The notes: generated by a model from the sequence alone, not told the origin. A DNA stretch of 64,000 nt from a bacterium (GCA_023144005.1 JAGLGN010000001.1:1-64000), one strand, 5' to 3'; shown: positions 9,163-29,779, counted from the stretch's first letter. Made by a program: numbers and translations.

Positions 9163-10065
9163 CTAGAAGTGTAGTCCCAGAGAAAATTTCATGACATTGC
9201 TTAAGGCTTCTTCTGTTCCGATGCCGTATGAAAAGTCAATATCTATGAATTCGTATTTTACACCAACACCTGCGGTAAGGCCTTCGTTATCGGTATTACC
9301 CTTATATCCGATCCTCAATGCGATCATATCCGCAAGAACATATTCTGCTCCAACGGAGAATTTCACACCGCTTTCCATGTGATAGTCGACCTGACCGAAA
9401 CCGGTAATTCCGTCCATCACCTTGTATGCCAGTCCGAATCTGAGTATCATTGGAAATTTGAAGGTTTCTGTATATCCGATCTCTCCGAAGAGGTTCTGCA
9501 CAGAAAGGCCAACACAAATATTGTCCATGAACTTGGCTCTGATACCAATGTCGGCCGTGAAAGCGGTTGCTGTTTCTGTATCGATCTTCTGTGATACATA
9601 CTTCCCGCCAACACCGATCCCTATGGAATCAGTGATCTTTCGTCCATAGGCCAATGTAAGGGCCATGTCACCGGCACTGAATTCTTCGCCTGCGGTGCCA
9701 TCTGGATCTGTCAGAGTTGTTCTGAGCATATCATCGGCAAAACCAAGGTTTACAAGTCCAAGGCCAAATGTGCCAATTCCATCAAGATTATAGGTCAATC
9801 CGACATACTGTGTGTTTGCATCGGCGATCCAATCCTGATAGGATGCATTAAAGTGAATACCTTTCTGAAATCCTAAAGAACCCAAATTCCAGAATATTGC
9901 TTCCGCACCAAAAGGTGCAGCTACAACCGCGTCTCCCAGCGCTCCGGCCTTTGCACCTACGGGGATCTTAAGAAATGGTGCTCCCGTGGTACCGGCGCCG
10001 TCGGCGGAAAATGCGGCCATCCCAACCAAAAATACGGTCAGTAAGACCAAAATTGCTTTTCTCAT
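9163..10065 (-). CDS. porV: PorV/PorQ-family outer-membrane protein
   Basis: The 300-aa protein has a signal peptide (MRKAILVLLTVFLVGMAAFS). It then shows the signature of the PorV/UPF0164 family: GAPFLKIPVGAKAGALGDA followed by GAEAIFWNLGSL, then alternating amphipathic beta strands ending in FSLGLHF with a terminal Phe, typical of a beta-barrel. PorV is the outer-membrane shuttle that collects CTD-bearing cargo from the T9SS translocon. It sits directly downstream of a CTD-bearing protease and SprA is about 14 kb away, which supports that role; PorV-family barrels also occur without T9SS. AGGAGG at 10074-10079 fixes the start. Confidence 0.85.
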   Translation of the reverse strand: MRKAILVLLTVFLVGMAAFSADGAGTTGAPFLKIPVGAKAGALGDAVVAAPFGAEAIFWNLGSLGFQKGIHFNASYQDWIADANTQYVGLTYNLDGIGTFGLGLVNLGFADDMLRTTLTDPDGTAGEEFSAGDMALTLAYGRKITDSIGIGVGGKYVSQKIDTETATAFTADIGIRAKFMDNICVGLSVQNLFGEIGYTETFKFPMILRFGLAYKVMDGITGFGQVDYHMESGVKFSVGAEYVLADMIALRIGYKGNTDNEGLTAGVGVKYEFIDIDFSYGIGTEEALSNVMKFSLGLHF

Positions 10066-10101
10066 ATGTAAAGCCTCCTAATATGATTAATAAAGAGCGC
10101 A

Positions 10102-10122
10102 GGGGGGATCAGCGATCCCCCC
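10102..10122. other. Strong hairpin between protease and porV-like genes
   Basis: A perfect stem with 9-bp arms (GGGGGGATC, loop AGC, GATCCCCCC) lies in the short gap between the protease stop and the PorV-like Shine-Dalgarno sequence. No clean T-run follows on the minus strand, so it may cause partial termination or set an mRNA end that makes porV more abundant than the protease. Confidence 0.7.
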
Positions 10123-10131
10123 TTATTACGG

Positions 10132-13100
10132 TTATTTAACAAGAGCTACCTTCTTATAGATGGTGTCTCCGCCTTCTGTGGTCATAACTATGAAATACAC
10201 TCCCGATGCGACCGCGTTGCCGTCGTCATTCGTGAGCATCCAGCTGACCACCGCTCCGGTCTTATCGACCGCGGTATTGTAATCGCCGGGAAGTGTCATA
10301 CCGGATATCGTGGTTTGATCGTAGAAATCAACACCCTCGTCCATGGTCGCGACCTTTTCACCTGCGATATTGTAAATATTGACCTCTGTGATGTCATCCT
10401 GTAATTTGTCAACTATGATCCTGTCTATATCCACGCTCGCAATTGCTGGATTTGGGAATATTCTGACTTCATCAAAGTTATCAAAGAGACTTGCCTTAGG
10501 AACGGCCAATACAACATATACACCCTGCTTTTCGATGGTAGCGAAAGCCGCCATTGTAACATTCTCTTCTATCTCAAGGATATTGGAGTCAATGGCCTCT
10601 AAGCCATTGGATGCCACATAATAAAGCTGCAATCTGTAATTGTCAAGTCCTTCCACATATGCCTTTCTGAAAGTGAGCTCAAGCTCTGTGCCTTCAGGCA
10701 GGAAGCCGTCCTGCGGCTCAGTGTAGATCTGCCTTGATGCGCCGAAGTACTTATTGCCTTCAGGGATCGCGATCTTTCTGGTAACACTCTTGATGCTAAG
10801 GTCTTTATATCCGTATTCGGAAATTTCACCCTTGATCTTCACAGAGGTGCCTGAATGATCTTCCCATTTGTCGCCATAATCGCCGGCCTTGGTGCTCCAC
10901 CCGCCATAAACATTATCAACATCGGAAAATACCTGAAGTGTTGTTACAAGTGTCTCGGGATTATAGACGGAATACAAGAGCTTATCTCCGCCTTCCGGAG
11001 CCCATTTAACAAATGCCTGTGACGCATCGCCAGCGGCTGCCTGGCTGGGGAATATTGATTCCGGATCAGTCCACTCTCTTGCATAAACATCAAAGTTGAC
11101 ACCGTCCATCACTTCCGCGAATGTCGTGCCTGCACCCGTCAGCCCGGCATAGGTAACATTGTTGAAGGTATCGTTCATATCAACATTAAAGGATACCACA
11201 TCTCCGTTCTGTGAGAATGAAGGTGACCATGCGGGATGCACGCCTGTCTGGTACACTTCGGTGATCCTTGAATCATCAAGGTCTAATGCCCAATTGGCTA
11301 CAAGAGGTCCGTCATCGATCTCGGCAATGATGCCGCTCATCACATAAACACCGGATTTCTGAACACCGGAGCCTGCGGGCCTGTAAACGAATACTATAGA
11401 ATCGCCGTCAGGAGACCACTTGGGATTGAAACACTTGGGCTCAAGCGTTGAACTGTCAGACTGATCGGTCTGGAAATTGGTCAATCTTTCCGCATCCAGC
11501 GTCGTCGCATTACTGGGACTTTCGGCAACATAAACAACCAGCTCACCGGCATGACAGGCAACGATCCTTGCCTTTCCGTCGGCAAATACCGCACCGTCTA
11601 TATAATCGGGATCATACCATGTCGTTACATCAGGAGATGCGACAAAGCCATGAGGATAATATGCGGCACCGGGAGTACTGTCATCGGTGGGAACCTTGTA
11701 TATCTCGATATCGGTTCCATCCGACTGAGCATAATAGATATTGTTCGGCCCTACCGCGATCTGTGAAGAATGATGAAGATTAGCGGACACATTTGTGAAT
11801 GTTGTCAGCGTGACATCACCATAAAGCGCGGCATTTGCCGCCTTCACGATAGCGGGAGAGGAGCCGTAATGTGATTTGACATAGAAGGCATCATCGGGAT
11901 TGGCTCCCGGATAACCCCAGATTGGGTTCTGAATGGGCGCTGTCTCTGTAACAGTAGCAACACCACCGTATCCGAAGAATTCCATGATCGCTCTCACATA
12001 ATTGTCAAATGTGGAATTATAATAATACACATCGTCATAAGGAGTAAGTCCGGGCATACATGAACCCGATGCTACAGTTTTCACATCGTAATTCTGCGCA
12101 ACACTGGCTCTGTGCCAATGCGCAATGGTAGTCGACCAGCCGGGATTGAGAAGCTGCGGAGCACTTGAACACTTGGTCTCAGAGACAACAAGTACCTCAT
12201 CGGTATCTATCGCATTCCTTGGCACCATAGAATTGTGGATCGTATCGGGATCCTGCTGATTGTCAAATTGGAATCTCATGCCGTTACAGACGGAGAAAGT
12301 ATTCGACTCGCCATTAAAGGCGGAGACCATTCCGTCAGTGGAGATATAATCACCGCTTGTTGTAACATTCCAGGCCTCAACATTTGCTGACATCGAATCC
12401 CAGAATATACCTTCCTGATCGGTAGGATATGTCCACTCATAAGTCATTATCCACCAATCCTCAAGATACAGCCTCTTTCCGTCCGTATGGAGGTAATTAT
12501 TGATGGCTATCATATCATTCGGTGAGAATCCATTGGTTACATCCATTGGAGTTACATCATCATAGAATGATCTTGATGCATTGAAAAGAAAGACGACGTC
12601 ATAATCGGTGAGTGTGGGAAGAATGTCGATATTATTGGGATAACCCTTTTCTTCGGTGACATCGATCTGATAATCGTAAGCAAAACCGAGGTTCTGCAAT
12701 GCCTTGACAAATGGGTCAGCCCATATATCGCCCTTCGCGCCGGAATCAGTGATCCCATTGAAAAGCGAAGGGTATGTACCGCCCCAGAACCCGGCCAATC
12801 CGCCGTATGTCGTATCAACAACAAGTATGGCGGGTGATGCGAGTGTGCTGGGAACATAAACATAGGCGCAATTCGAATATGAAGTAAGCCCCTGATCATC
12901 AGTGGCTTCAATCATGAACCAGAAGTCATTTCCGACCAATCCGGTGGCTACCATCGTCTCGGCCGCGCCCGCGGCTGAAGGAGTAGGTGGGGTTCCGGTG
13001 GCTACTGCCTGCGAACCGAACTGTCCTGAAGTAAATGCCGCTGAATTGGAGTACCTTGCCTCATAAGAGGTTGCCGCTCCGGCTCCACCGCCGATAACTT

Positions 13101-16100
13101 CGTCATCGCCGGGAGCGTCCCATGCCAGTCTTGCTGAGCCGGCAGATGCGCTCGGGAAGGCGGTCAGAGTAAAGGGTGCCGGAGGAAAGGAATCGGTAAA
13201 GGCGCTACAGCCGAAATGACCGAGTATCCTGTCAACATAATCTTCCTGCTCTGCTGCATTTGTCATATAAGAGGTAAGAGCAGTGGAAAATACAGAATTG
13301 CCGTACTCTGTAACAATATTATAAGAGTTATTCGTCTCATAGGACATTGTCCCGGAACCCGCTGTCATACTGCAGTGGATTTCCCAATCAACGCTGAAGA
13401 AGGCTGAAAGCGAATCGCCTGAAGCAAAAGCACTGCCTGCCTGGCCTGTCGCGGGAGCGGTCCATGCGTTAAGAGCCCCGCCGAGTCCGTAATTGTCCCA
13501 CATACCGGCATATGAGGCACCGATATAATTAGTGGCGTAATCCGAATATGCGAAAGTGCCTTCGGCCCATTGAACTTCACTATAGAGGAAACCGCCGCCG
13601 TCGATCAGATTCTGAGGACGACTGGATTCTATAGATGTAAAGAGTGATTCCTGATTACCGCTGAGATTACAGATACCACCCATATAAAGAACCATGTCAT
13701 AACTGGTAAGGTCGCCTATATCACCGGCTGTCTGTGTCTGTACATAGGAATAGCCGAAATTGGCTACTCTTGACGCCCACAATGCTGCTGATTCGGTGGC
13801 ACCGCCGAAAAGATCTCCGCTGCCTTCTATCCAGATCAGTATCGCTTTTCCGGGATATGATGGTCCGCCCCAACCCACGGGAGCTGCAAGAACATCTATT
13901 GAGATCACATCGGAATAGCCGGAGTAATTATTTGCCTCATCCTGTGTTCTCAATCTGAAATCATAACTTTCGCCAGGTGTAAGTCCGGATGCGATATAGG
14001 ATTCACCGCCTTCGGGCATTGCCGGAGGAGATGGTTCGCCTGTAATATCAAGCCATGTGCCTGAAGAAGAAAGTTTGTATTCCAAGTCATAGTATAAGTA
14101 ACCGCCGGCAGCATTATTATTTCTGCCTATCCAGACATCATCTCCGGGAGCTGTCCAAGATATCGCAACAACACCCTCATTATAAGGATTGAGCTTCGCG
14201 GAAAGCGAAGTCACCGCAGGTGCCGTAACATCCGTGGGATTCGTGGACTGTCCCAATGTATTAAGTATATCATCCATATACTGGAGTCTGTCGGCATCAT
14301 AAGGAACTGTAGAGTTGATACCCGAGAAAAGAATATCGGAGAATATCGTATCGCCCTCACCGCCGCCTATATTCCAGTAAACGACACGGGTAACACCATT
14401 ACCCTGATCACCGTCAGAGGTTATCGCAGTGGAACCGTCGGTCGGTGAAAGCGGGGTATTGAAAGAATTTGTATAAGCTCCCCAGCCAGGATTATTATCA
14501 TTGCTCTCATAGGCACGATTGGAGCCCAGATTTGCGCCGGGGCCGGCGGAACCTGAAACATCGTTAATATTCTCTACCTGATCATAACCGTCATTGTCCC
14601 AATCAACAGCCGCGGCATCTGTGCCGAATTTGGCCCAGATCGAGGCACCACCATAAGTTCCTGAACGGCCGGCACCTTCAAAATAAAGACCACCGCCATC
14701 AGTAACATAATCCGTGAGTATATCGCATTCTTCGCCGGTAAGTATCATAACTCCGCCGGTCGGGGATCTTGCAGGGCTGTAATATGCGACATTTCCCGCA
14801 AGGACGAATACTACGTCAACTATCGCGGGAGAAAGGTCGGAAGGTACATTGTACTTGGTCAGATACTGCCAGTTCAACGCGCCCAATGCATCGTAAACAT
14901 ATTGTTCCGTGGGCTGTGAATATCCATTCACCGCGGCACCGGAATCGACATCAACGATCAATATCGGAATGCCGCCAACGGTCATTCTGAATGTTCTTGT
15001 GGTCGAGTAATCCTTCGCGCCTGAATCATATTTACCGGCAATATACAATGAGAATTCTATTTCATGCAGATTAGGTGTACTGGCATGTATTTCGATTTCC
15101 ATCGTATCGGAAGCGGCTTGAGTTCCACCGCCGCCGGCGATATTGGCATAAGCGGAAGTATCGTCCGTGATATTGATCCAATAATCATCCAGACTGATCG
15201 TTGCGGTACCATTGGTGAAAGTCGCTATAGCATCCGAACTTCCGTCATTTTTGAGCGTTACATTGATCTGAATGGTCTCGCCGGCTTCAACTATGCCGTC
15301 ATTATCTCCGCCTGTGGCGTCTGATTTCGTTTTTGAATCAAAGACAAGGAACGGGCTGGGAGAACAAAGCAACAATGCCGCATTTGCATCCAGAAGTCCA
15401 TGACCGTATTGCCAGTCATATGTCTCGGTACCTGAAATGGCTGAGGTCGCGGTAGGATTTACATTTCCATTGCTGGTATGATCCGCCGTACTTCCAAGGA
15501 TATCAATGATAACCTTGGGATCGACCGTTCCCGCTGAACCCATGAGCCCGATCAGAGCCGCCATGGAGGGGCAGGAATATGATGTACCGTAATTGCCTGA
15601 TCCCCAGTTTTGATCAGAAGGATCAGCGGTCGCACAATCGTAACCTGAACCGTTCCAGTTGGAAAAATCCATACCCGTACCGTACATATTTGCGCTCGGA
15701 GTAATACAGAACAACTGATCCAATTCCGCATTCGCGAAATCACCGGCAAGATCACCCTGCCAGCCTTCCGTTGAACCTTCGTCCCAATTGGATGAATTCC
15801 ACCAGGAACCTGTAGAACCGGTCGCGCCAACGGCGAATGAGCGGATATATCCAGCGGGATAACCCATTGCATTCGCGCCGTCATTACCTGACGCGACTAT
15901 TACTAATGTACCAGCATTCCATGCGTTCGTAACAGCGGTCTGTACCGTAGCTGAATAAGATGGTCCGCCATAAGAGCAGTTTATTGCAAGAGCGTTAATC
16001 GTACGGCCGTAGTCAATACCCTGCAGGCCATAAGCGATCGTACCGCCGCAGCTACCAGATTTATAGGGAGCGAGCATACATCCCGGGGCCATTCCGGCGC

Positions 16101-16944
16101 CGTCCTCACCATCGTTCATATCACCGAACATCATATTTGCTATGAATGTTCCATGACCAAAATCATCTTCGCCGTCGGTATCACTATTATAAAGATCGAT
16201 TATAGTCGCACCGTTATTGTATATGGCGACATTCTGAAGTTCACGGCTCTTTACATAGGATCCGGTGGGTTCAATATTTGCCGGATTAACCGCATCGGCA
16301 TCTGTATAAACTGAAACACCGGAGTCATTTACAACAAGGATGACCGAAGAAGAACCTGTTGTAATATTCCAGGCATCTTCCATATTCATCAATGTCCAAT
16401 GCCACTGACTCGAATAACCCGGATCGGTGGGAGTGTAATATGTGTAATTGATGGGCTGATATTCAGCATAATCAACTTCAGCATATCCATTCAGCTTCTG
16501 CACAAATGATTCTATCGTCTCGCCTTCGGGTACTGAGGCATTAAATGCATTCTCATCCGAAGCATAGAATTGAGGGAGTATTTCAGAACCGAGGTCCTTT
16601 AAAAATCTCCCTGCGCTGGCATGCGTCTTGGTGTCATGATCAATAAAACGTACCCAGACCTTATCGGCCTTAACCAGCACGGCCTTGCCGTTGCGGAGAT
16701 CGGATACACCTTTTACCACAATACCGTCACAGAGTTTCTTTACTTCACCTAATCTTACCTTAGGTTTGAAAAAAACCTTATCACCGGCATCATACTCCTT
16801 AAAATCGTCTGCATTGAACTCCTCTACCAAAGTAGCGTCGTCCCTTACAAGCGTATTAGGAGCTTTGACAAAACCATCGTCGCTTGCGGCAAAACCCGCG
16901 CTTAGAACGACAACAGCGATCAAAAGCAAGAAATACTTTTTCAT
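10132..16944 (-). CDS. Giant S8 subtilase with FnIII, propeller repeats and T9SS-type C-terminal domain
   Basis: The ~2270-aa secreted protein has a signal peptide and a propeptide-like region with FxPKVRLGEVK. A subtilisin domain follows with Asp in VNDSG near residue 206, His in GHGTF near 263, oxyanion Asn in ASGND and Ser in GTSYSCPSM near 453. Next come three Rossmann-like ILxVD modules (about 656-860, 1031-1190 and 1369-1600) that resemble GATase/ThuA-like folds, FnIII-like domains near 908-1015 and 1261-1365, and WSPDGD-type propeller repeats near 1838-1915. The C-terminal ~110 residues (FPNPA, VNIYNIAGEKV, ASGVYFIVM) resemble a T9SS type A sorting/FlgD-like domain. GGAGGT fixes the ATG at 16944. 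Confidence 0.9.
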   Translation of the reverse strand: MKKYFLLLIAVVVLSAGFAASDDGFVKAPNTLVRDDATLVEEFNADDFKEYDAGDKVFFKPKVRLGEVKKLCDGIVVKGVSDLRNGKAVLVKADKVWVRFIDHDTKTHASAGRFLKDLGSEILPQFYASDENAFNASVPEGETIESFVQKLNGYAEVDYAEYQPINYTYYTPTDPGYSSQWHWTLMNMEDAWNITTGSSSVILVVNDSGVSVYTDADAVNPANIEPTGSYVKSRELQNVAIYNNGATIIDLYNSDTDGEDDFGHGTFIANMMFGDMNDGEDGAGMAPGCMLAPYKSGSCGGTIAYGLQGIDYGRTINALAINCSYGGPSYSATVQTAVTNAWNAGTLVIVASGNDGANAMGYPAGYIRSFAVGATGSTGSWWNSSNWDEGSTEGWQGDLAGDFANAELDQLFCITPSANMYGTGMDFSNWNGSGYDCATADPSDQNWGSGNYGTSYSCPSMAALIGLMGSAGTVDPKVIIDILGSTADHTSNGNVNPTATSAISGTETYDWQYGHGLLDANAALLLCSPSPFLVFDSKTKSDATGGDNDGIVEAGETIQINVTLKNDGSSDAIATFTNGTATISLDDYWINITDDTSAYANIAGGGGTQAASDTMEIEIHASTPNLHEIEFSLYIAGKYDSGAKDYSTTRTFRMTVGGIPILIVDVDSGAAVNGYSQPTEQYVYDALGALNWQYLTKYNVPSDLSPAIVDVVFVLAGNVAYYSPARSPTGGVMILTGEECDILTDYVTDGGGLYFEGAGRSGTYGGASIWAKFGTDAAAVDWDNDGYDQVENINDVSGSAGPGANLGSNRAYESNDNNPGWGAYTNSFNTPLSPTDGSTAITSDGDQGNGVTRVVYWNIGGGEGDTIFSDILFSGINSTVPYDADRLQYMDDILNTLGQSTNPTDVTAPAVTSLSAKLNPYNEGVVAISWTAPGDDVWIGRNNNAAGGYLYYDLEYKLSSSGTWLDITGEPSPPAMPEGGESYIASGLTPGESYDFRLRTQDEANNYSGYSDVISIDVLAAPVGWGGPSYPGKAILIWIEGSGDLFGGATESAALWASRVANFGYSYVQTQTAGDIGDLTSYDMVLYMGGICNLSGNQESLFTSIESSRPQNLIDGGGFLYSEVQWAEGTFAYSDYATNYIGASYAGMWDNYGLGGALNAWTAPATGQAGSAFASGDSLSAFFSVDWEIHCSMTAGSGTMSYETNNSYNIVTEYGNSVFSTALTSYMTNAAEQEDYVDRILGHFGCSAFTDSFPPAPFTLTAFPSASAGSARLAWDAPGDDEVIGGGAGAATSYEARYSNSAAFTSGQFGSQAVATGTPPTPSAAGAAETMVATGLVGNDFWFMIEATDDQGLTSYSNCAYVYVPSTLASPAILVVDTTYGGLAGFWGGTYPSLFNGITDSGAKGDIWADPFVKALQNLGFAYDYQIDVTEEKGYPNNIDILPTLTDYDVVFLFNASRSFYDDVTPMDVTNGFSPNDMIAINNYLHTDGKRLYLEDWWIMTYEWTYPTDQEGIFWDSMSANVEAWNVTTSGDYISTDGMVSAFNGESNTFSVCNGMRFQFDNQQDPDTIHNSMVPRNAIDTDEVLVVSETKCSSAPQLLNPGWSTTIAHWHRASVAQNYDVKTVASGSCMPGLTPYDDVYYYNSTFDNYVRAIMEFFGYGGVATVTETAPIQNPIWGYPGANPDDAFYVKSHYGSSPAIVKAANAALYGDVTLTTFTNVSANLHHSSQIAVGPNNIYYAQSDGTDIEIYKVPTDDSTPGAAYYPHGFVASPDVTTWYDPDYIDGAVFADGKARIVACHAGELVVYVAESPSNATTLDAERLTNFQTDQSDSSTLEPKCFNPKWSPDGDSIVFVYRPAGSGVQKSGVYVMSGIIAEIDDGPLVANWALDLDDSRITEVYQTGVHPAWSPSFSQNGDVVSFNVDMNDTFNNVTYAGLTGAGTTFAEVMDGVNFDVYAREWTDPESIFPSQAAAGDASQAFVKWAPEGGDKLLYSVYNPETLVTTLQVFSDVDNVYGGWSTKAGDYGDKWEDHSGTSVKIKGEISEYGYKDLSIKSVTRKIAIPEGNKYFGASRQIYTEPQDGFLPEGTELELTFRKAYVEGLDNYRLQLYYVASNGLEAIDSNILEIEENVTMAAFATIEKQGVYVVLAVPKASLFDNFDEVRIFPNPAIASVDIDRIIVDKLQDDITEVNIYNIAGEKVATMDEGVDFYDQTTISGMTLPGDYNTAVDKTGAVVSWMLTNDDGNAVASGVYFIVMTTEGGDTIYKKVALVK

Positions 16945-17040
16945 AAAAACCTCCAAAATATTCATGCCTACGTAGATGCAATATTTATGCCATCATCTAA
17001 GTACCGATATATTGGACATAAGACAGCGTTTTTCTTCCAG

Positions 17041-17063
17041 ATTTCTGAAAGAATTTCAGAAAT
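17041..17063. promoter_or_regulatory. Perfect palindrome upstream of the protease gene
   Basis: Arms ATTTCTGAAA (17041-17050) and TTTCAGAAAT (17054-17063) flank GAA. It lies about 97-119 bp before the protease start, between that gene and an upstream terminator, with no T-run beyond it. That position suits an operator for a dimeric regulator. I could not read a convincing promoter between it and the gene. Confidence 0.5.
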
Positions 17064-17075
17064 TAGAATGAAGTC

Positions 17076-17111
17076 AAAAAAAAAAGGGGAGCACCGGAAT
17101 AGGCACTCCCC
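17076..17111 (-). terminator. Rho-independent terminator after the 277-aa lipoprotein gene
   Basis: On the minus strand GGGGAG and CTCCCC, extended by four more pairs including two wobbles, form a stem with a TATTCC loop, followed directly by ten T residues. It ends transcription of 17139-17972 and separates it from the protease gene. Confidence 0.9.
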
Positions 17112-17138
17112 TGTATATACGGTTAAACGATCAATGCA

Positions 17139-17972
17139 CTAGTTTCTAAGTTTGATCACCTGAACGATCGAGTCAGAGTATCCTGATTCATCGACGAAAT
17201 CAAAGGTGAGTGTCACAGTATTACTCCATGGCCCACCGGCTATAAGGGCAACCTTCTCGGGTCCTTCGGGATAATATGCCTCCACAGACAACATCACTGT
17301 TCTTACAGGTGTCTCTAATATTATCGTGGCCTGGAGAGCGGAATCAATAGTAAGAGCGTCGGTATCGGTATTTTCATAAATATTAACAATGAATTCATCC
17401 GCCCAGGTATCCGCAGCATCCTGTTTCACCACTGAAATAGTGGCGGTAACAGTTGAGGCGGGGTCGGAATCATCATCCTGAATATCTATAAAATATGATT
17501 GTTTTGTGGCAGCGACCTCAACCTTATAAGTAATGGGATTAGCAGGAGCCGCACCGTTCCATTCTACATTCGGAGGGCGGGACAAAACAATGATAGAGAA
17601 GACGGATTCTGTAGTAAAATTACCGTCAGAACCGGTAGCTCTGAACCAATACCTTCCCGCTGTTCGCGGAGAATACCATTTAAAGATATCCGGATCATCG
17701 GTTACCGCAGGAGGAGCTGCAATCTCAGGGTTAGTCCTTTCCGGATCGGCAACGATGGAAAACTCGACCACATCGCCATCATAATCTGTATAGTTAACAG
17801 TGACTGTAACAGTGTTATTACGAACCACCGTCTGTGGAAAAACATCAAAAAAGTTGATCATCGGAGCGCGATTATCCGGATCCAGCCCTTTTTCATTTGT
17901 CAAACAACCGGTCATAAAAAGCCCGGCTATAATAAGCAGACTAATAACGGAAAAGTAAACAACCTTCTTCAT
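17139..17972 (-). CDS. Lipoprotein with Ig/cadherin-like domains
   Basis: The 277-aa protein has a lipoprotein signal with lipobox MTGC. The mature part is beta-rich. It carries VTVNYTDYDGDVVEFSI and YWFRATGSDGNFTTESVFSIIV, typical of PKD/cadherin-like Ig modules in surface proteins, then a second domain with no clear match (KQSYFIDIQDDDSDPASTV). It is monocistronic, with its own promoter and terminator. A surface-adhesion or structural role is likely but not shown. Confidence 0.7.
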   Translation of the reverse strand: MKKVVYFSVISLLIIAGLFMTGCLTNEKGLDPDNRAPMINFFDVFPQTVVRNNTVTVTVNYTDYDGDVVEFSIVADPERTNPEIAAPPAVTDDPDIFKWYSPRTAGRYWFRATGSDGNFTTESVFSIIVLSRPPNVEWNGAAPANPITYKVEVAATKQSYFIDIQDDDSDPASTVTATISVVKQDAADTWADEFIVNIYENTDTDALTIDSALQATIILETPVRTVMLSVEAYYPEGPEKVALIAGGPWSNTVTLTFDFVDESGYSDSIVQVIKLRN

Positions 17973-17993
17973 AAGGTCCTCCTGATTTTTTTA

Positions 17994-18022
17994 AGTATAT
18001 CAAATATAAAAACACAAGTCAA
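17994..18022 (-). promoter_or_regulatory. Promoter of the 277-aa lipoprotein gene
   Basis: Minus-strand TTGACT (18017-18022) and TATACT (17994-17999) have a 17-bp spacer. AGGAGG follows before the ATG. Confidence 0.75.
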
Positions 18023-18047
18023 GAAAAAGTGAGTGTGACGTATGACG

Positions 18048-19364: not shown

Positions 19365-19724
19365 TTATTTAGAAATGAACAGCTTCAACGCAATGGCCAT
19401 CAAATAGACCGCAAAAACCTTCCGCAAAAGATCCTCCGGGATATTAATGGCAATTTTCGAGCCAAAGTACCCGCCTATCATGAAGCCCGCGGCAATAAAA
19501 GCGCCGGCGGTGATATTAACAAATCCGGCTTTGTAATAGGTCATTGCAGCCAGGAGGCCGATGGGAGGGACCAGCAGGGCAAGTGTAGTCCCTTGAGCGG
19601 TTTTCTGAGTAAAACCGAACAAGAGCACCAATAAGGGCGTTATCATAGTTCCGCCTCCTATCCCTATGACCCCGCTTATCGAACCTGCAGCAAGTCCCAA
19701 TATAATAAAGCCGACAATATTCAT
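19365..19724 (-). CDS. Half-size TauE/SafE-like membrane protein
   Basis: The 119-aa protein has about four hydrophobic segments and the TauE/SafE N-terminal signature GVIGIGGGTMITPLL. Full TauE/SafE (DUF81) proteins have about 250 aa from two homologous halves; only one is present here, so it may work as a homodimer. Members are proposed to export sulfur-containing anions. The start at 19724 is chosen because CTCCTT on the plus strand (AAGGAG on the minus strand, 19732-19737) is 7 bp away; an adjacent ATG is also possible. Confidence 0.8.
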   Translation of the reverse strand: MNIVGFIILGLAAGSISGVIGIGGGTMITPLLVLLFGFTQKTAQGTTLALLVPPIGLLAAMTYYKAGFVNITAGAFIAAGFMIGGYFGSKIAINIPEDLLRKVFAVYLMAIALKLFISK

Positions 19725-19752
19725 CATCACTCTCCTTTGTATCTTATTATAC

Positions 19753-19780
19753 ATTATAAGGATAAGAAAAAGTTTTTCAA
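19753..19780 (-). promoter_or_regulatory. Promoter of TauE/SafE-like gene
   Basis: Minus-strand TTGAAA (19775-19780) and TATAAT (19753-19758), spacer 16 bp. It is divergent from the dsbD promoter just to its right. Confidence 0.65.
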
Positions 19781-19786
19781 GAACTA

Positions 19787-19814
19787 TTGACAATTCAATA
19801 TTAAGTATTATAAT
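19787..19814 (+). promoter_or_regulatory. Promoter of dsbD
   Basis: Consensus TTGACA (19787-19792) and TATAAT (19809-19814) with a 16-bp spacer. AAGGAG at 19828-19833 is 6 bp before the ATG. Confidence 0.8.
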
Positions 19815-19839
19815 ATTCTAAAACTCAAAGGAGTCAGCA

Positions 19840-21642: not shown

Positions 21643-22545
21643 TTCTTTAGTTTTTCAAATACTGTGTTATTCTGCCAGGACTTCTCCCAACAGCACGAGA
21701 TATACCCGACTTACTATAACCCCTTTTATATAAAAAGCGCACTAATTTCTTTAATGTAACAGTGAACTGATGATTCCATTTTAATTGGAATATATCCTCA
21801 TAGACATAATCCGTTTTCAAAAAATATTTATCGATCACTTCTTTTATGGGGGCTTTCTTCTCTTCAGAGCGCATGTCAAAGGATTTTAAAATAGTTTTCC
21901 TGGATCTTTTTGCAAGGTTCAAGTACTCTATTTTATCTCCAATTATATTCATACATTTGGGAATCTCTTCAAAGTCTGGCGATGCAGAAAAATCATCCAT
22001 CGAGGTCGTTTGCAAGAATCCAGGGATCTTCACAATGTTCTTAACATTAGAATTGTTTTGAGGATCGAAATAAATGCGATAGCTTGAGAAAGAATAATCC
22101 CCCGGCTTATCACAAAGATGTGCCTTCACAGGATTCATGTGTATGTAATGTATCAGGGAAATGAGATAATCTTCCTTCGCCACATAGAAAGATTTAAATC
22201 GGCCTTGAAAGACATGGCCAACCGTCATATATTTGGCATTAAAATATATGGCATAACTCGTATTCAGCGACCTCATCATTTTCTGAAGAGAATCAGTTTT
22301 CCTGTGTAGCAGGAAATGAACATGATTCCTCATCAGGCAAAAGGCATTCAAATCTATCTTAAGTTCGCTCAGTAATTTTCTTAATATTGCGAGATAGACC
22401 ATCATATCATCATCAGAAAAGAAAAGTGGGTTTTTCCGCTGACCTCTGGAAATGATATGAAAATAGGAATCCGGAAAATCAAATCTTGCAGTTCTATTCA
22501 CACATACCCCCCTACGAAAACTAAAGAATTAAAGCACCGTCCCTA
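21626..22545. mobile_element. RAYT element bounded by perfect 29-bp inverted repeats
   Basis: The left repeat (21626-21654, starting TAGGGACGGTGC) and right repeat (22517-22545, ending GCACCGTCCCTA) are perfect inverted copies over 29 bp. The only gene inside is a Y1/HUH transposase. The dsbD stop and the transposase stop lie within the left repeat, and the stop of the Clp-like gene shares its final base with the right repeat. No target duplication longer than the shared TAG is evident. This resembles REP-associated tyrosine transposase units flanked by their own palindromic sequences. Confidence 0.85.
21647..22501 (-). CDS. REP-associated tyrosine transposase (RAYT, Y1 family)
   Basis: The 284-aa protein is a HUH/Y1 transposase of the IS200-like superfamily. 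It has YFHIISRGQRKNPLFF at the N-terminus, the metal-binding His pair in MRNHVHFLL, GHVFQGRFKS, and the candidate nucleophile region HYIHMNPVKAHL. RAYTs cut single-stranded REP sequences, and the C-terminal helix-turn-helix-like tail (SGISRAVGRSPGRITQYL) could bind DNA. It begins with GTG after a G-rich stretch and is intact. It is embedded between inverted repeats and transcribed against dsbD. Confidence 0.92.
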   Translation of the reverse strand: MNRTARFDFPDSYFHIISRGQRKNPLFFSDDDMMVYLAILRKLLSELKIDLNAFCLMRNHVHFLLHRKTDSLQKMMRSLNTSYAIYFNAKYMTVGHVFQGRFKSFYVAKEDYLISLIHYIHMNPVKAHLCDKPGDYSFSSYRIYFDPQNNSNVKNIVKIPGFLQTTSMDDFSASPDFEEIPKCMNIIGDKIEYLNLAKRSRKTILKSFDMRSEEKKAPIKEVIDKYFLKTDYVYEDIFQLKWNHQFTVTLKKLVRFLYKRGYSKSGISRAVGRSPGRITQYLKN

Positions 22546-23901
22546 AGTTATAACAATTGTACCTTTACTTATATTAAATTTGAAGGACTTTTTTTGAGGA
22601 TGGTCCTTGATCTTCTTCAGGAGGGGTATAAGTAATTTCCTCTCAATAAATGAGGATATCTGATTTGGTACTACCTTGGTTTCTTTGAAGTATTCCTGAG
22701 CAAGATAGGAGACCACCGACTTTGTACAGTTGATCTCAAAGCCCTTTTCTTTGATTTGGTCTTTTACCAGGGCTATCTTCCTTTTGAATATTTCATGATA
22801 ATCCTCGACGGAAATATCGTTGAATATATAAACACCATCAAGGAGTGAGACAAATTCCGATCCGTATTCACTTGCGATAATGGTCTTGATCTCTTCATTT
22901 GTCTTCTCTTCTGTGGGGTTTTGAAAACCTATTTTCTTGGTGAGATTCTTAACAATATTTTTGTCCAGCGTTAGAATTAATACTGCATTTTCAAAGGAAA
23001 GCTTCTCCCCCTTGATAAAAATATGCCCCTTAGAGAATATCTGGGTCAATAGAAAGAAGAGTTTTTTAGAAATAAATTCAAAGTGCTTGATCAGGAAAAC
23101 CTTGTCTCTATCGGTCTTGACCATCTCTTTGAACATGAAAGATTGAATATCCTCGCGTGACTCAACTTCGGATGGTGGGTTCTCATTGGCGATATTCTCA
23201 ATTTCGTCCAGCATGCTCAAATCCAATTCCGCCACACTCTCTCTTGACTCAAAGACCACTTCCGCGATTGAATAGGCCAGTTCCGATTTCCCTGTGGATT
23301 TATTTCCTATGAACATAAATACACCGTTGGGCAAATAGGGTTTCAAGTCCAAAGAAAAATATTTCAATACAAGGAAATCCGAGATATCCGAAACAAAATC
23401 CCTGTTAAGGAATACCTTGCCGAGAAGATCATTTTCAAAATTAAATGGATCTATCTTTTTTCGGCGGGGACGGTGTGTGGGAGGTTTTAATTCTCCGGGT
23501 TTGAATTGACGGCCGAAGGTTCCCCTTGAATTCAGGATCGAATATCCTTTATCATACATATCCTGAGGGATATTTTTTGTTTTTACTCCCAATCTCAACG
23601 CCGATAGGACCAGATGGTTCAGGTCGATCTTCACTGAGAGATTATTTGAGGCAATGGTCGCCGCTCCGCTGAGCACCATTTCAAATTCATTGTCAAAGAG
23701 GACCTTTGATTCATTTTCTTTTAAGAAATCCACATATGTGGAAAAGAGTTCCACTGCGGAAGAGGATTCGGGAGAGATATATTTATTCCCGCTCGCCGCG
23801 AAATGTGAAAGTATCTTAAAAAGTCCGGGGTTCTGCGATTGATCATCCGCTTCTTCTCTGATGTCATTTAGGAATTTAGTCAATGCCTGAGAATATTTCA
23901 T
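22543..23901 (-). CDS. ClpA/ClpB D2-like protein with degenerate Walker B
   Basis: The 452-aa protein has a helical N-terminal region of about 180 residues, then one AAA+ module arranged like the second domain of ClpA/ClpB. Walker A reads GNKSTGKS near residues 199-206. The expected LLDEIEKA Walker B position reads FLIKHFEF near 268, followed by the usual FxxLxQIFxxG and IFIKGEKLSFENAVLILTLD context. A ClpB-like C-terminal small domain follows. Loss of the acidic Walker B pair predicts nucleotide binding without efficient hydrolysis. Only one AAA+ module is present. It starts 9 bp beyond a small CesT/YbjN-like gene, with SprA further upstream. Function unknown. Confidence 0.75.
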   Translation of the reverse strand: MKYSQALTKFLNDIREEADDQSQNPGLFKILSHFAASGNKYISPESSSAVELFSTYVDFLKENESKVLFDNEFEMVLSGAATIASNNLSVKIDLNHLVLSALRLGVKTKNIPQDMYDKGYSILNSRGTFGRQFKPGELKPPTHRPRRKKIDPFNFENDLLGKVFLNRDFVSDISDFLVLKYFSLDLKPYLPNGVFMFIGNKSTGKSELAYSIAEVVFESRESVAELDLSMLDEIENIANENPPSEVESREDIQSFMFKEMVKTDRDKVFLIKHFEFISKKLFFLLTQIFSKGHIFIKGEKLSFENAVLILTLDKNIVKNLTKKIGFQNPTEEKTNEEIKTIIASEYGSEFVSLLDGVYIFNDISVEDYHEIFKRKIALVKDQIKEKGFEINCTKSVVSYLAQEYFKETKVVPNQISSFIERKLLIPLLKKIKDHPQKKSFKFNISKGTIVIT

Positions 23902-23909
23902 ATTATAGC

Positions 23910-24344
23910 CTAATCAACGAAGCCCAGGAAGGAAGGCCTGACATCTCTGTATATATGGACCAGCAGATTGAGAAAGAACGGCAACTCGGCGGAAACCGTA
24001 TCTGTTTCTTTCAATAATGTGTAAACGATCTCGTTCTTCTGCTGTTCAACCGCAAATCTGCCATGCGAAGTTTCATCGTAATTCAGCTGGAGCAGGCGCA
24101 AGAACATTGCCCATTGTTTTGAGGGATTGGAAGGAAGATCCCCCATAGAAGCAGTGAGCCTTAGAAATTGACCGCTTTCATCAAGTATCTCCATCTGTAT
24201 CTTTATCACAGGGCCGTTCTTCTCTGTTTGAATGGAGAAGAACCATAGTCCCGGTATATCATCGACCTTTTCAAAAGGGATCTTCAGCTTGTTCAAGCCC
24301 TCATCCAACTTTTTTGCCTTTTCAAGAATAAGTTTTTTGTCCAT
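23910..24344 (-). CDS. Small CesT/YbjN-like protein
   Basis: The 144-aa protein has the alternation expected of type III chaperone-like (CesT/YbjN) folds. An N-terminal helix (KLILEKAKKLDEGLNKL) is followed by strands including WFFSIQ and IKIQMEIL, a middle helix (WAMFLRLLQLNY), a GRFAVEQQKNEIVYTLL hairpin and a C-terminal helix. The assignment is by pattern only. AAGGAGG precedes the ATG at 24344; an upstream in-frame ATG is less likely. It is followed closely by the Clp-like gene, which suggests a chaperone-adaptor pair. Confidence 0.6.
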   Translation of the reverse strand: MDKKLILEKAKKLDEGLNKLKIPFEKVDDIPGLWFFSIQTEKNGPVIKIQMEILDESGQFLRLTASMGDLPSNPSKQWAMFLRLLQLNYDETSHGRFAVEQQKNEIVYTLLKETDTVSAELPFFLNLLVHIYRDVRPSFLGFVD

Positions 24345-24361
24345 GGGGACCTCCTTATTGT

Positions 24362-24389
24362 ATTCTATCAAAATATTCTCTGAAGTAAA
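24362..24389 (-). promoter_or_regulatory. Possible promoter for the CesT-like/Clp-like pair
   Basis: Minus-strand TTTACT (24384-24389) and TAGAAT (24362-24367) are 16 bp apart, just after the AAGGAGG-containing leader begins. The -35 match is modest. Confidence 0.4.
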
Positions 24390-24394
24390 GGGGA

Positions 24395-27300
24395 TCAGAA
24401 AATAATATTTCCGCCGAAAGTAATTTTAAATTCTCTGTAATCAAGCCGGACTTCATTTAGATTATCGTAAATTGTGTATGAGATATTCGAGTTGAAAACG
24501 AAGTTCTTAGAGAATCTGTAATCAAATCCTCCATTCACATTGATATTATTTGATTCCGTGGCATTGATCTTATCGCTTCTTAGCATTGACATTGAAAATG
24601 CCAATTTGGTATTTACCGAGTTCTTTAATTTGATCTTTTTCTTCACAAAAGGTATCTTCAGCCCATACTTCAGGTCCATGCGGTAATTCCATGATGAAGA
24701 GAGTGTCAGATTGCCCTGAAAAGATTGAATGAGTCCCGCAATATTAGAGGTGGTCTCCACCCTATGTGAGTATGAGACACGCAAGGATTGATTGAGTTTT
24801 GATGAGAAATTGATGGGAAATGTCGCAGATGGTGTAAAGGTCTCCAGGCGGTAATTCGAATTCGACTTCTCATTGGATGTGTAATTGAATCCCAAGGTCA
24901 ATGAAGTCCTTTTGAGGAATTTGAAGAATTTGTCCAACTTTGTGATGGAGGCGTTTGAAACCAGCGAATGAGTGAAATCTGAATACGAACTGCCCAATTT
25001 TACCGTATCGGCTCTGCGGTAATTATAATTTCCCGATAGCGCTATAAATGACAATGGATTGTAGTTCATAGAAAAGGCGATCCTTTCCTGAACTGAAAGA
25101 TTATTGAATATCTCATCTTCAAATTGATCGGTAATGATCTTCACAGCATCTTCCACAGGGAAAATACCTGCCCAGCTTGAGATCTCGGACGCAGTAGAAT
25201 AATCGTAGGAGGCATTGATATTTATAGTTCCAAGGGAAAGGAATTTGGTCTTTCTGAAGATTGTAGAAAGGGACATACGATTGGATATGGAAACATTCGT
25301 AGAGAATTTCACATTAGTAGTGTCCTCCTCCGCTGATTTGTAATATGTTCTTGTTAAGGCACTTTTCACGGTAATATTCGGCTGTAGGAAATGTTTGAGA
25401 AGTTTTAAACTGGTGGAAAGATTATAGCTCATATTATCATTCTGCTTGAAACCGTCCTTTTCCGTATCATTATAGACAAATGTATTTTTCAGCTTGAGGT
25501 GTTTAATATCGAAATTCAAGGTGGCATTGTTTCTTGCGTCAAATGAATCCGTATCGGTATTATCATAATCCTGATTGAATTTCTTCAAAACAATGTTGCG
25601 GCCGCCGGAAATGTTGATATTCTGCAGAATAAAAAGCATATTACGGATCTTCACTGATACATTATGGATCTCATTGATGGCATTTGACTTGAGAAGGGCA
25701 TCTTCATCTCTGATGCCGTATGCCTTGTTCTGCCTGTTCGAATATGAATATGAGATCGACGGCAATTTAGACCAGAGAAGCTTGCCCAGATCCATATTTG
25801 TCGTAATACGGAAATTCTCACTTTCCGAGCGATAGTCGGCGACCCCGGAATCAGAGATATTGATGATCTCCTGAAGAGTAGAAGCGGAACTGGAATAACC
25901 CACCGTTATCGGAAGATACTTTATAGAATTCAGGGTAAGATTCGCGGATATTACCTCTTGGTCACGGCCGGTCCTTGAGCTTCCCAGAGAAGAAAAATTA
26001 CCGCCGACATTTGAATAAGATACAGATACGGGCCCAAGCCCGGGAAGTTCTGTGGATACAGCCGCTCTATATGCTGAATCCCTTAACACTTCGGGTGATT
26101 TCAAGATAATATTATTGATAAGTATCCTTCCTTCAATTGTTGTTTCTGTCTCAAGTTCAATTGCCATATACTTCACATTGTAAAGACTCGGGTTTCCCTC
26201 TTTCGAATATGAACCGTCGGCAACACGGGCATCTATCTGTTTAATATCGACCTCATTGGGTGTCCAGGAGCCGAAAGAGGGCTGAGCGAGAGGGAATCTC
26301 CAATAATTATTCTCATCGATACCCATTCTGAAATACAGCGTATAAGCTGCCGTATCAGGAAAGTGAGAAACAGAGCGTGAGGAGATCTCAAAGAACTTGT
26401 AATTACTTATATTAATGGCTTTGGACTCATTTTTCTCGGTGTAGCCAGTATGCGGCTGCGTGGAATTGCCGGTAATATAATAATCTATCAGCAATGCCTC
26501 TCTGTCTGTGATATCATCCTCATCAAAGAAGGCATCTCCAAAGGCCGGATCGTCCTTAGAAGCATTGGACAGATTGAAATACTCAATGAGATCGCCATCT
26601 ATCACGCGGCCCTTTTCCCATTGACTTCCTGAAATACCCAGATCCTGTATCTTGATCTGCACCGGGCCGGAAGTGGTCTCCACCCATAAGCGAAGATATT
26701 TAACGCTTGTAGCCGCGGGATTGCCGTATGTATCGGTTGCGGGATTGTCAAGGTTTAAAGGAATGGAGTAGAAGACCCAGCCGTCATTGCCGTCATTCGG
26801 GCCGGGAACGGATATAGAATAGGAATAATACCTGTCGGCGAAATCTACGAGGCCGTTGCCGTCCAGGTCCTCTTTCTGAAGGTAATTATCTCCGGCACCG
26901 TATGTGACCGGGCCGGAAGCAAAGCCGTTGAACTCTATTCCTATATCTTCAGAAATGCCGTCGACCTCGTCCAGACGGCCGTTAACGATCAATGTATCCT
27001 CGGAATCGTTCAAAGCATCGGCATCAGCATCCTCAGAGATCAGCCCTATATCGATATGCAGCGTAGCGATGGTAGCAGCGCCGGTATTCTTGATCCAGAA
27101 ATCCAAAGTGGACCGCTGTGAAATATCCATTAATGAGGATGAAATACAATTCGTTATCCCTCCCCAGCTGTCACTTTCATCAAGCTTGATCACCAAAGAG
27201 GTCTTCAACGGATTCTCGGAATAGAGATCAAATGTGTCATCCTGAGTAATGGGGCGGGAATCTCCATCGTTCGTGATATGATAAAAGCGGAACTTATTTT

Positions 27301-29779
27301 CAGCGGAATTAAATTCCGTATCTTCGGAATTCAGGGAAATGGTCATAGCGCGGGTCAGGACACCGGAAACAGCAGAGGGTTCGCTGGATAAATACCATAA
27401 TTGCCGGCCGCCGCTACCGGACGATCTCGTGAGCATGGTGGGTGATACATAGCTCTTTGTGCCCTCCATGGTGTCAAGTTCCGCTTCACCGTAGGTATTG
27501 GGGTTGTTGTAGGAATATGCATATTCAGCGGAAATATTGATCGGCTTCGGCTTGAGTTTACTGATAAGTGGGAGCTTGAAAAGAGTATCCTTTAAAAATT
27601 TTTCCGTGATCTTCAATGAAAGATCAACATCCGCCACGAATTTACTCTCCGGTTCTTCCCCCGGCTTGGGGATCTCATCACGGCCCTTCATATATTCTTC
27701 ACTTATAACAGTGGAGCCGATAAAGAAATTAGGGCTTATATTCCACTCGAGCCGATTTCCCAGCACATACTTCTGCTGTGAAGAGAAGAATGGTTCATAT
27801 TCATAATTGATCTCTATCTGGGCATTTCCCTTCAGAACATCATCATTTCGAAAGGTAAGAAAGCCGCTTCGGTAATCGATCGTATAGTCGGTACCGGTCT
27901 TCAATATCGCTCCATCAACCTTGACGACCTCGGAGCCCTCTTTGATATTCGGTGAAAGATAATAAAGCTTCTGCGGAGTATCGTACTTCATTTGGATCTT
28001 GAATCTTGTCTGTGAAATATCAAATGGCGAAGTCAGGCTGTCATTACGGGCATATATTCTTTTATTCGAGCACGCATCTATGATCTCATTGAGTTCCGAG
28101 GCGGAAAGCAGAAACCTTTCTGAATCCGCCATATCCCTGAGGTATCCGGAAACGGTGTCATTATCGGTAAGGTCGAATGGGGTAGCGTCCGGGAAAAAAA
28201 GATAACCGTTGTCAGTATCCAGTATCTCTCTGTCGCGGTCAATGATCCCGTCAAAGTCCTTGTCCAACCCGAAGATGGTCAGGTATTTAATGACCTTGCC
28301 GGTTGTTGTGGTATAGGTGGTATTATCATTATCGGAGTCATTGAGATTAATGATGCTCACACTGATATCATCCGGCGCGATACCCATGACTCCGGTGGAA
28401 TACGCATTCATCAGAGCATTTCCCGTAAAACGGTTCCTCGCGGTCTTGAGGAAGATATATCCTGTTATCGTGTCATTATTGCCGTCGGCGTCAAGGTCAG
28501 AGACCGCGCCGGAATACCAGGCATCGGAGGCGTCTTCATCTATGGCGCCGTCACCGTCATCATCCTCATATCCGTCAGCATCGTCATCTCCCGGAGGATC
28601 TTCATCAACCATGCCGTCATTATCATCATCTGTACCGGGCGGGGGGTCTTCATCAACCATGCCGTCGCCGTCATCATCAACGAATGGATCATACGGCAGG
28701 CCGACATAGAAAAATTCGCCGGTGAGAAGGTCCTCTACCTGAAATGCTGCGATAACAAGGCCGGAATCGTTTATTGATTTCTCCATAAACAGGATCCCGC
28801 GATTTGTGTCCACATAATAATCCTCACCCCGGAGCAATTGTTCAAAATTCCAGATCTGAACTCCTCCCTGTAAAGGCCCTATATTTATCACGGCATCGGT
28901 ATCATTGTTAATTCCATTGGCGTCATCATAGAAGATTATTTCTGAATTCGAAACTATCTGATACCTGCCGTCAAAGCGGCCCTTCAGATCCTGCCAGGCA
29001 TATGAAGACGGTGAAGTGCTTCTGTAAAGGGCATATAATCGATTTTTCTGATAACCGCCGTCATTGAGCTCTCTTTCTGTCTGACTCGTATTTCCTCTAT
29101 ATGTTTTTCCCATGGTTTGATTCTCGGAGATCCCCATTATGGGAAATAATTGCAGTTTTCCCGGAATAAATGCAACATCCTCAAAAACTATTTTGGCTTT
29201 AAGGCCAAAAAAATTCTTTGAATAGGAAACGAATTGTGTATTCGGAATGGAAAGGTTAATATTTCCCGCTTCAATGGATTTCAATATCTCATCCTCTTTT
29301 CCGGCGTATTTCAATGAAATGTTCTGGTTTATGGAATAATTCTGCTGAGTATCGTCATATTTGATCAGGAGATTGAGCCGTTCGCCCACGATACCCTTGA
29401 GATTAAGCTTCATTGACTGATTAAGCTGCAGATCGGTAGACGCATCCCTGTCAGGGTCATTCGGGTATACCTTATGTGAAAGAGAGAAGGAGATGTTCTT
29501 GAAGATATTCAAAGCGATCGAACTTTTAATAGCAGATATCTCCAACTCGGGAATAAAGCCCGTTTTACTCTCGGTAAGTATTAACGCCGGGCGTGGTAAA
29601 AAAGATTTGCGCTTCTTTAAAAATGACTTGTTCTCACCCTCAACCAATTGCGTTTTTGCAGGCGGAACCAAGGCAGCCGCCTCCGATTCTTCGTCAATTT
29701 CGATCATTTCCCCGTACAAGAATAGAGACATAAAGAGAAATATTATCATGCATAAGGTCTTGAATTTTTTACTAAACAT
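24395..29779 (-). CDS. sprA: SprA/Sov-like T9SS outer-membrane translocon protein
   Basis: The 1794-aa protein has a signal peptide and long beta-rich regions. Two segments are characteristic of SprA/Sov, the giant outer-membrane barrel of T9SS. One is LKYAGKEDEILKSIEAGNIN followed by SIPNTQFVSYSKNFFGLKAK near residues 155-200. The other is YYLSPNIKEGSEVVKVDG followed by TDYTIDYRSGFLTFRND near 600. The C-terminal third alternates SYxY-type barrel strands and ends GGNIIF. Unusually, residues of about 365-421 form acidic DDxxDGxxDED repeats like thrombospondin type-3 calcium loops. It is shorter than Bacteroidetes SprA (about 2400 aa). Its promoter is leaderless type, facing a lipoprotein operon. 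Confidence 0.85.
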   Translation of the reverse strand: MFSKKFKTLCMIIFLFMSLFLYGEMIEIDEESEAAALVPPAKTQLVEGENKSFLKKRKSFLPRPALILTESKTGFIPELEISAIKSSIALNIFKNISFSLSHKVYPNDPDRDASTDLQLNQSMKLNLKGIVGERLNLLIKYDDTQQNYSINQNISLKYAGKEDEILKSIEAGNINLSIPNTQFVSYSKNFFGLKAKIVFEDVAFIPGKLQLFPIMGISENQTMGKTYRGNTSQTERELNDGGYQKNRLYALYRSTSPSSYAWQDLKGRFDGRYQIVSNSEIIFYDDANGINNDTDAVINIGPLQGGVQIWNFEQLLRGEDYYVDTNRGILFMEKSINDSGLVIAAFQVEDLLTGEFFYVGLPYDPFVDDDGDGMVDEDPPPGTDDDNDGMVDEDPPGDDDADGYEDDDGDGAIDEDASDAWYSGAVSDLDADGNNDTITGYIFLKTARNRFTGNALMNAYSTGVMGIAPDDISVSIINLNDSDNDNTTYTTTTGKVIKYLTIFGLDKDFDGIIDRDREILDTDNGYLFFPDATPFDLTDNDTVSGYLRDMADSERFLLSASELNEIIDACSNKRIYARNDSLTSPFDISQTRFKIQMKYDTPQKLYYLSPNIKEGSEVVKVDGAILKTGTDYTIDYRSGFLTFRNDDVLKGNAQIEINYEYEPFFSSQQKYVLGNRLEWNISPNFFIGSTVISEEYMKGRDEIPKPGEEPESKFVADVDLSLKITEKFLKDTLFKLPLISKLKPKPINISAEYAYSYNNPNTYGEAELDTMEGTKSYVSPTMLTRSSGSGGRQLWYLSSEPSAVSGVLTRAMTISLNSEDTEFNSAENKFRFYHITNDGDSRPITQDDTFDLYSENPLKTSLVIKLDESDSWGGITNCISSSLMDISQRSTLDFWIKNTGAATIATLHIDIGLISEDADADALNDSEDTLIVNGRLDEVDGISEDIGIEFNGFASGPVTYGAGDNYLQKEDLDGNGLVDFADRYYSYSISVPGPNDGNDGWVFYSIPLNLDNPATDTYGNPAATSVKYLRLWVETTSGPVQIKIQDLGISGSQWEKGRVIDGDLIEYFNLSNASKDDPAFGDAFFDEDDITDREALLIDYYITGNSTQPHTGYTEKNESKAINISNYKFFEISSRSVSHFPDTAAYTLYFRMGIDENNYWRFPLAQPSFGSWTPNEVDIKQIDARVADGSYSKEGNPSLYNVKYMAIELETETTIEGRILINNIILKSPEVLRDSAYRAAVSTELPGLGPVSVSYSNVGGNFSSLGSSRTGRDQEVISANLTLNSIKYLPITVGYSSSASTLQEIINISDSGVADYRSESENFRITTNMDLGKLLWSKLPSISYSYSNRQNKAYGIRDEDALLKSNAINEIHNVSVKIRNMLFILQNINISGGRNIVLKKFNQDYDNTDTDSFDARNNATLNFDIKHLKLKNTFVYNDTEKDGFKQNDNMSYNLSTSLKLLKHFLQPNITVKSALTRTYYKSAEEDTTNVKFSTNVSISNRMSLSTIFRKTKFLSLGTININASYDYSTASEISSWAGIFPVEDAVKIITDQFEDEIFNNLSVQERIAFSMNYNPLSFIALSGNYNYRRADTVKLGSSYSDFTHSLVSNASITKLDKFFKFLKRTSLTLGFNYTSNEKSNSNYRLETFTPSATFPINFSSKLNQSLRVSYSHRVETTSNIAGLIQSFQGNLTLSSSWNYRMDLKYGLKIPFVKKKIKLKNSVNTKLAFSMSMLRSDKINATESNNINVNGGFDYRFSKNFVFNSNISYTIYDNLNEVRLDYREFKITFGGNIIF

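Follow-up and report, generated by a model that had tools for sequence, protein, structure and literature searches.

Introduction

In the type IX secretion system (T9SS) of Bacteroidota, a single PorV serves all type A cargo and dedicated shuttles are kept for type B cargo only (PMC12618676). The same report states that the type B cargo of Flavobacterium johnsoniae depends on genetically linked PorP/SprF shuttles, with 9 of the 12 cargoes adjacent to a shuttle and three orphans sharing one, and a second study describes such cargo as bound to these shuttles (PMC9143113). Reviews describe the T9SS as confined to Bacteroidota or to the Fibrobacterota–Chlorobiota–Bacteroidota group and as driven by PorLM (PMC4793230, PMC11205867, PMC12421860). 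Here we analyse a stretch of 64,000 nucleotides of bacterial DNA (GCA_023144005.1, JAGLGN010000001.1:1-64000), referred to as the window, which encodes a homologue of the SprA translocon, a PorV-family barrel and a giant subtilase ending in a C-terminal sorting domain (CTD). In the genome to which it belongs, at least 16 PorV genes adjoin a gene for a CTD protein, an arrangement that we read, with a probability of roughly 0.6, as a reduced T9SS with dedicated PorV carriers that probably also anchor their cargo.

The type A branch of F. johnsoniae and Porphyromonas gingivalis has the same SprA barrel, PorV-family carrier and type A-like CTD. It differs in that no PorL, PorM, PorN or C25 protease was detected in the window's genome, and in that at least 16 PorVs, each beside one cargo, are found here against the single PorV described there (PMC12618676). 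With the type B PorP/SprF shuttles (PMC12618676, PMC9143113), the system shares a carrier that adjoins its cargo, several such pairs together with orphan cargoes, and a carrier proposed to act as an anchor; unlike them, it has carriers of the PorV family, many CTDs that match the type A profile, and no gliding motor that we could find. Anchoring through PorE and PorP, in which PorE binds peptidoglycan according to two reports (PMC9143113, PMC7192894), likewise ties an OmpA-type peptidoglycan-binding domain to the carrier, whereas here OmpA and SPOR domains are fused to the carrier itself, which belongs to the PorV family. CTD proteins matching TIGR04183 are also described outside Bacteroidota, in Poribacteria, where the report recognises no Por structural genes and calls the export route unknown (PMC3909097); in the present case, by contrast, SprA and PorV were found. 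A literature search, with most subscription journals and preprints outside its scope, returned no apparent account of SprA without PorL and PorM across phyla or of PorV-CTD gene pairs, and novelty is unproven.

Results

Translocon, carrier and cargo in the window

The window belongs to a 180-kb contig in a genome of 2.67 Mb (G000; 96% complete, 0.2% contaminated) and was described by its open reading frames (ORFs), base composition, and Pfam and NCBIfam family matches. Four relatives of the same family (G001-G004) make up family f1 together with G000, and two genomes of a different family in the same class (G005, G006) are called f2; the remaining sampled genomes have only the taxonomic domain in common with that of the window. 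The features on which the analysis turns are the following.

24395-29779, minus strand: SprA/Sov outer-membrane translocon homologue, 1794 residues, single copy (TIGR04189, 6h3i, hhalign)
28529-28681, minus strand: acidic DxDxDG block in SprA, residues about 367-417, class-specific (sequence comparison)
9163-10065, minus strand: PorV-family outer-membrane barrel, putative dedicated carrier of the adjoining cargo (NF033709; 6h3i_F)
10132-16965, minus strand: putative cargo, a 2277-residue diverged S8 subtilase with an fn3-type region and a C-terminal sorting domain (TIGR04183; catalytic motifs)
10135-10461, minus strand: CTD (Por_Secre_tail) of the subtilase, residues 2169-2277 (TIGR04183, PF18962, local CTD profile)

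Profile comparisons identify the 1794-residue protein as a genuine SprA/Sov. The NCBIfam profile TIGR04189 matches it with E=2.4e-58 and 197.5 bits, slightly below the 200-bit cut-off; a profile made from six SprAs of the family finds F. johnsoniae SprA (6h3i) with E=1.5e-24 in two colinear stretches, and profile-profile alignment with other SprAs by hhalign gives a probability of 100 and E=2e-82 over 1041 columns. Pfam SprA_N has no match on the protein, PF14349 is uninformative, with zero matches anywhere, controls included, and phmmer with SprA alone as the query against the PDB returned no match; the family profile was required. The original prediction, made from the sequence of the window, had pointed to SprA/Sov signatures at this place and proposed a profile search, of which the TIGR04189 part succeeded and the SprA_N part did not. 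One match was found across the window's genome, and SprA is kept in all five f1 genomes and also in the two f2 genomes, there in the form of contig fragments. The protein is about 25% shorter than the 2370-2403 residues of Bacteroidota SprAs, as had been predicted, and the added acidic repeat block that had been remarked upon is real: it occurs in all five f1 SprAs and in f2 (L022), and was not seen at the same place in the other SprAs examined. The block gives weak matches to calmodulin, and that it binds Ca2+ is only a guess.

The barrel at 9163-10065 is, judging by its family profiles, a genuine PorV-family carrier: NF033709 scores 186.8 bits against a cut-off of 90, and the PorV family profile finds the PorV chain 6h3i_F with E=9.4e-38. 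The subtilase gene, 66 bp upstream of porV, encodes the Asp-His-Ser motifs in place at residues 214, 271 and 462, in a diverged S8 protein that has no Pfam S8 match and matches an NCBIfam mycosin profile with E=1.4e-8. Its C-terminus scores 23.8 bits with TIGR04183 (cut-off 23) and can be assigned as a type A-like CTD. Both the barrel and the giant protease with a Por-secretion-like end had been called correctly from the window. An orthologue of the subtilase is paired with a PorV in G004 (L128), and partial orthologues, consisting of the C-terminal part, occur in G001, G003 and G006 (32% identity in the last). The earlier description of a T9SS set within 20 kb holds here but only for this genus; in G004, SprA is on one contig and the subtilase-PorV pair on another. 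Single-sequence AlphaFold models were discarded for their low mean predicted local distance difference test scores (31 for PorV, 38 for the subtilase CTD).

A CTD gene beside each PorV gene

The PorV/PorQ profile has 13 matches in the window's genome and local profiles add three, giving at least 16 PorV paralogues for one SprA. All 16 genes adjoin a CTD gene on the same strand, the sixteenth pair (L234) depending on a CTD match of E=0.0014. For comparison, stretches around PorV matches were taken from 22 genomes irrespective of their neighbours, apart from three exceptions chosen for CTD or C25 matches. In f1, the immediate neighbour is a same-strand CTD gene for 41 of 41 PorV genes (15/15 for the window's genome in this set), at gaps of -32 to 129 bp, against 68 of the 929 other ORFs in the same stretches; Fisher's test gives p about 5e-43, which is indicative only, the ORFs not being fully independent, although the contrast is large. 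Pairing extends to f2, with 11 of 16 PorVs paired, three at contig ends and two unpaired, and to SprA-bearing genomes outside the window's class, with 29 of 46 paired, some of them PorU-PorV pairs (a second Fisher test, on the PorVs outside the class, used 28/45).

The window's genome encodes about 35 CTD proteins (27 matches at E<=0.01), some 20 of them with no PorV alongside, and the pairing is therefore complete from the carrier side and partial from the cargo side. Apart from subtilases, the paired cargoes include LTD, Big/Ig-like, fn3, beta-helix and repeat proteins, their domains being of a surface type. This one-carrier-per-cargo layout reaches well beyond the region singled out by the original prediction, which missed it. 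A second S8 subtilase-CTD cargo (L140:10335-11777; Peptidase_S8, E=7e-62) has its own adjoining PorV.

Tree distances between PorVs of the window's genome correlate with those between their paired CTDs (Mantel r=0.71, p=0.0002; Spearman 0.67). The rate-centred correlation is r=0.67, falling to 0.41 (p=0.003) when one member of a recent duplicate pair is dropped. The distance correlation also holds in G004, in f2 and in other phyla; the 7 pairs of G003, taken by themselves, show none that is significant (r=0.23, p=0.25). Such co-divergence is consistent with matching between carrier and cargo.

Several of the carriers exceed 420 residues. One (L120:9417-11498) has peptidoglycan-type OmpA and SPOR domains C-terminal to the PorV barrel, and its f2 orthologue from G005 (L131) carries OmpA and SPOR too. 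The other five f1 and f2 genomes have orthologues that match in length, and seven of the seven lie beside a CTD protein. Across this locus (L120:8474-11498) and its counterparts L130, L131, L132, L134, L144 and L151, the CTD neighbour has about 310 residues where it is complete. In three further pairs (L120:1519-2964, L138:4594-5988, L139:9309-10667) a CsgG/LpoB-like domain is fused to PorV, a domain of the type encoded in the window by a separate gene. Another carrier bears tandem helix-hairpin-helix domains, and its locus holds a ComEC homologue in both f1 and f2, which suggests, from domain content, that this carrier-cargo pair serves DNA uptake. The genes at these loci (L135:393-9977, L154, L158, L166) encode ComEC (Competence, E=2e-38), a helix-hairpin-helix protein, the PorV with its ComEA-like tandem domains and the CTD cargo; lamin-tail domains are present in the cargo of L135, where the full cargo was scanned. 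From the topology of the barrel, the fused domains are presumably periplasmic.

Motor, ring and sortase

The search for PorM (TIGR03517) and PorL (TIGR03513) covered 386 genomes, that for PorN (TIGR03523) 24. Each matches strongly (E=1e-30 or better) only in G068, G209 and G339, which lie outside the class of the window's genome and are presumably Bacteroidota. Since these genomes with full sets share only the domain with the window's genome, the latter is not Bacteroidota, as had been supposed. With the three control genomes positive, PorL and PorM had no match in the window's genome or elsewhere in f1 and f2, and none of the three PorN positives among the 24 genomes belongs to the window's class. 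Altogether, no PorL, PorM or PorN was found in the window's genome or in 18 further SprA-bearing genomes outside Bacteroidota, GldK, PorT, PorW/SprE, PorE and PorP not having been searched. SprA is present in 151 of the 386 genomes and convincing PorL/PorM in 3 of the 386; SprA without PorL and PorM is thus a common state in the sampled genomes. The converse was observed in G068 (L098, L105, L217), where GldL, GldM and GldN are present with no SprA match. The C25 protease (PF01364, the PorU fold) was not found in any of the five f1 genomes; f2 and the majority of the other SprA-bearing genomes tested do have it, frequently as the immediate neighbour of a PorV. These absences hold at the level of sequence profiles, which strongly diverged versions could escape.

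It had been proposed that the system was reduced or dispersed. Our results agree with reduction and not with dispersal, PorL, PorM and PorN not being found anywhere in a 96%-complete genome or in its relatives. Lack of a SprA-family match, or of any PorL, PorM or PorT homologue in the whole genome, had been named as evidence against a T9SS. The SprA match is there; the absence of PorL and PorM does not discard the finding, because SprA is conserved throughout the family and accompanied here by 16 or more PorVs and some 35 CTD proteins, and because SprA without PorL and PorM is common among the sampled genomes.

An ordinary T9SS, with a motor, ring and sortase too diverged for the profiles and with PorV-CTD neighbours that are simple operons, is an unlikely reading. 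In its favour, the score of SprA is slightly below the curated cut-off, Pfam SprA_N misses the protein, and GldL, GldM and GldN are short and fast-evolving. However, the profiles recover PorL, PorM and PorN with high significance in the same three genomes and nowhere else convincingly, SprA-rich relatives such as f91 included, and C25, easily detected in f2 and other phyla, was detected in none of the five f1 genomes.

Rather more doubtful is the idea that the CTD subtilase beside PorV substitutes for the PorU sortase and processes cargo without C25. Genes for PorU and PorV adjoin elsewhere, and the subtilase occupies the same position as C25 in the C25-PorV pairs of G007, G009, G013, G015, G036 and G339; its catalytic motifs are intact, and the pair is conserved in f1 and f2, although in f2 only the C-terminus of the cargo is visible. 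Yet most of the other carriers adjoin proteins that are not proteases, the second S8-CTD cargo has another PorV, and the f2 genomes with the pair also possess C25.

Other genes around the system

Three further genes flank porV or sprA.

8034-9044, minus strand: CsgG/LpoB-like putative lipoprotein with TPR, directly downstream of porV (PF03783, E=1.3e-18)
22543-23901, minus strand: ClpB/ClpA-like AAA protein, C-terminal half only, downstream of sprA (PF07724, 5.4e-8; TIGR03346, 5.9e-20)
23910-24371, minus strand: conserved 153-residue protein between the AAA gene and sprA, conserved together with the AAA gene

The CsgG-like gene does not adjoin porV in G004. The ClpB-like gene and the gene for the 153-residue protein, which has no Pfam or NCBIfam family match, adjoin sprA in G000, G001, G003 and G004, that is, in three of the four genera of the family, and are absent in G002. 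The unusual Clp-like and CesT-like neighbours of the original prediction are therefore real as neighbours in those genera, while no profile confirms the CesT label. A role for these two genes as energy source or chaperones of secretion was set aside, given that the pair is not beside sprA in G002 and that direct use of ATP at the outer membrane is implausible.

On the other side of sprA, a divergent trio (29801-32131; UshA-like, FHA and nucleotide cyclase domain) is conserved across f1, and a more distant UshA-like gene stands beside sprA in f2 (L022). An IS200/Y1-type transposase-like gene (21647-22501) lies between dsbD and the ClpB-like gene; it is present in the same genus and absent at that place in G004 (L032). 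The gene at 33737-35053 encodes a CobW/HypB-like nucleotide-binding protein of 438 residues with no equivalog match.

Discussion

What is established, and what the reading as a reduced T9SS with dedicated carriers builds on, is the identity of SprA, PorV and CTD, the adjacency and co-divergence of PorV and CTD, the fused domains and the lack of matches at the level of profiles. Homology to the PorV family, together with the type B precedent (PMC12618676, PMC9143113), makes it most likely that each PorV takes the CTD protein encoded next to it through SprA and retains it there. Cargo bearing a signal peptide along with a type A-like CTD would be brought to the periplasm by Sec and leave across the outer membrane by way of the one SprA barrel, each of the at least 16 PorV barrels most likely being the specific carrier of the CTD protein encoded beside it. 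No C25 sortase that could remove the CTD was detected, and the cargo therefore most likely remains attached to its own PorV. The carrier would then double as a surface anchor, and each cargo molecule would use one up, which would account for how closely the genes are paired. The fused OmpA and SPOR, CsgG/LpoB-like and helix-hairpin-helix domains would tether the complex to the cell wall or connect it with other machinery, and the CTD proteins that have no adjacent carrier presumably share one.

Several observations weigh against this proposal. In the window's genome some 20 CTD genes lack a PorV neighbour, and pairing is therefore not strictly one to one. The f2 genomes hold PorV-CTD pairs as well as C25 proteins, and loss of the sortase is therefore not required for pairing. 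Part of the co-divergence could come from pairs that duplicate as units, or from co-inherited neighbours, and not from binding specificity. Moreover, the cargo of F. johnsoniae is trapped on SprA once GldL is lost (PMC10994853), so a translocon without a motor should stall unless it has another source of energy. Either such a source or a different mode of release operates here.

That the PorV-CTD pairs form a surface-display module independent of SprA, with the barrel as exporter, is highly improbable: the pairing is far tighter than any linkage to sprA, a single-copy gene that in most cases is located elsewhere, but SprA is kept throughout f1 and f2 and the PorV family profile is closest to the PorV that partners SprA, PorV having been searched in SprA-bearing genomes.

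Beyond the dedicated carriers of this family, we raise a broader and more tentative possibility, which we think less probable than not. A motor-free and sortase-free T9SS may be common outside Bacteroidota, in which each cargo has a single-use PorV of its own that draws it from SprA and keeps it permanently, some carriers being tied to the cell wall through OmpA and SPOR or linked to DNA uptake through helix-hairpin-helix domains beside ComEC. This form could be ancestral, Bacteroidota having added a rotary motor and a recycling sortase.

The presence of SprA, PorV and CTD proteins without detectable motor and sortase genes in another phylum makes testable what constitutes the export core, whether the motor is necessary, and whether carriers are recycled or consumed. 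It may also help to explain the CTD proteins encountered in phyla such as Poribacteria.

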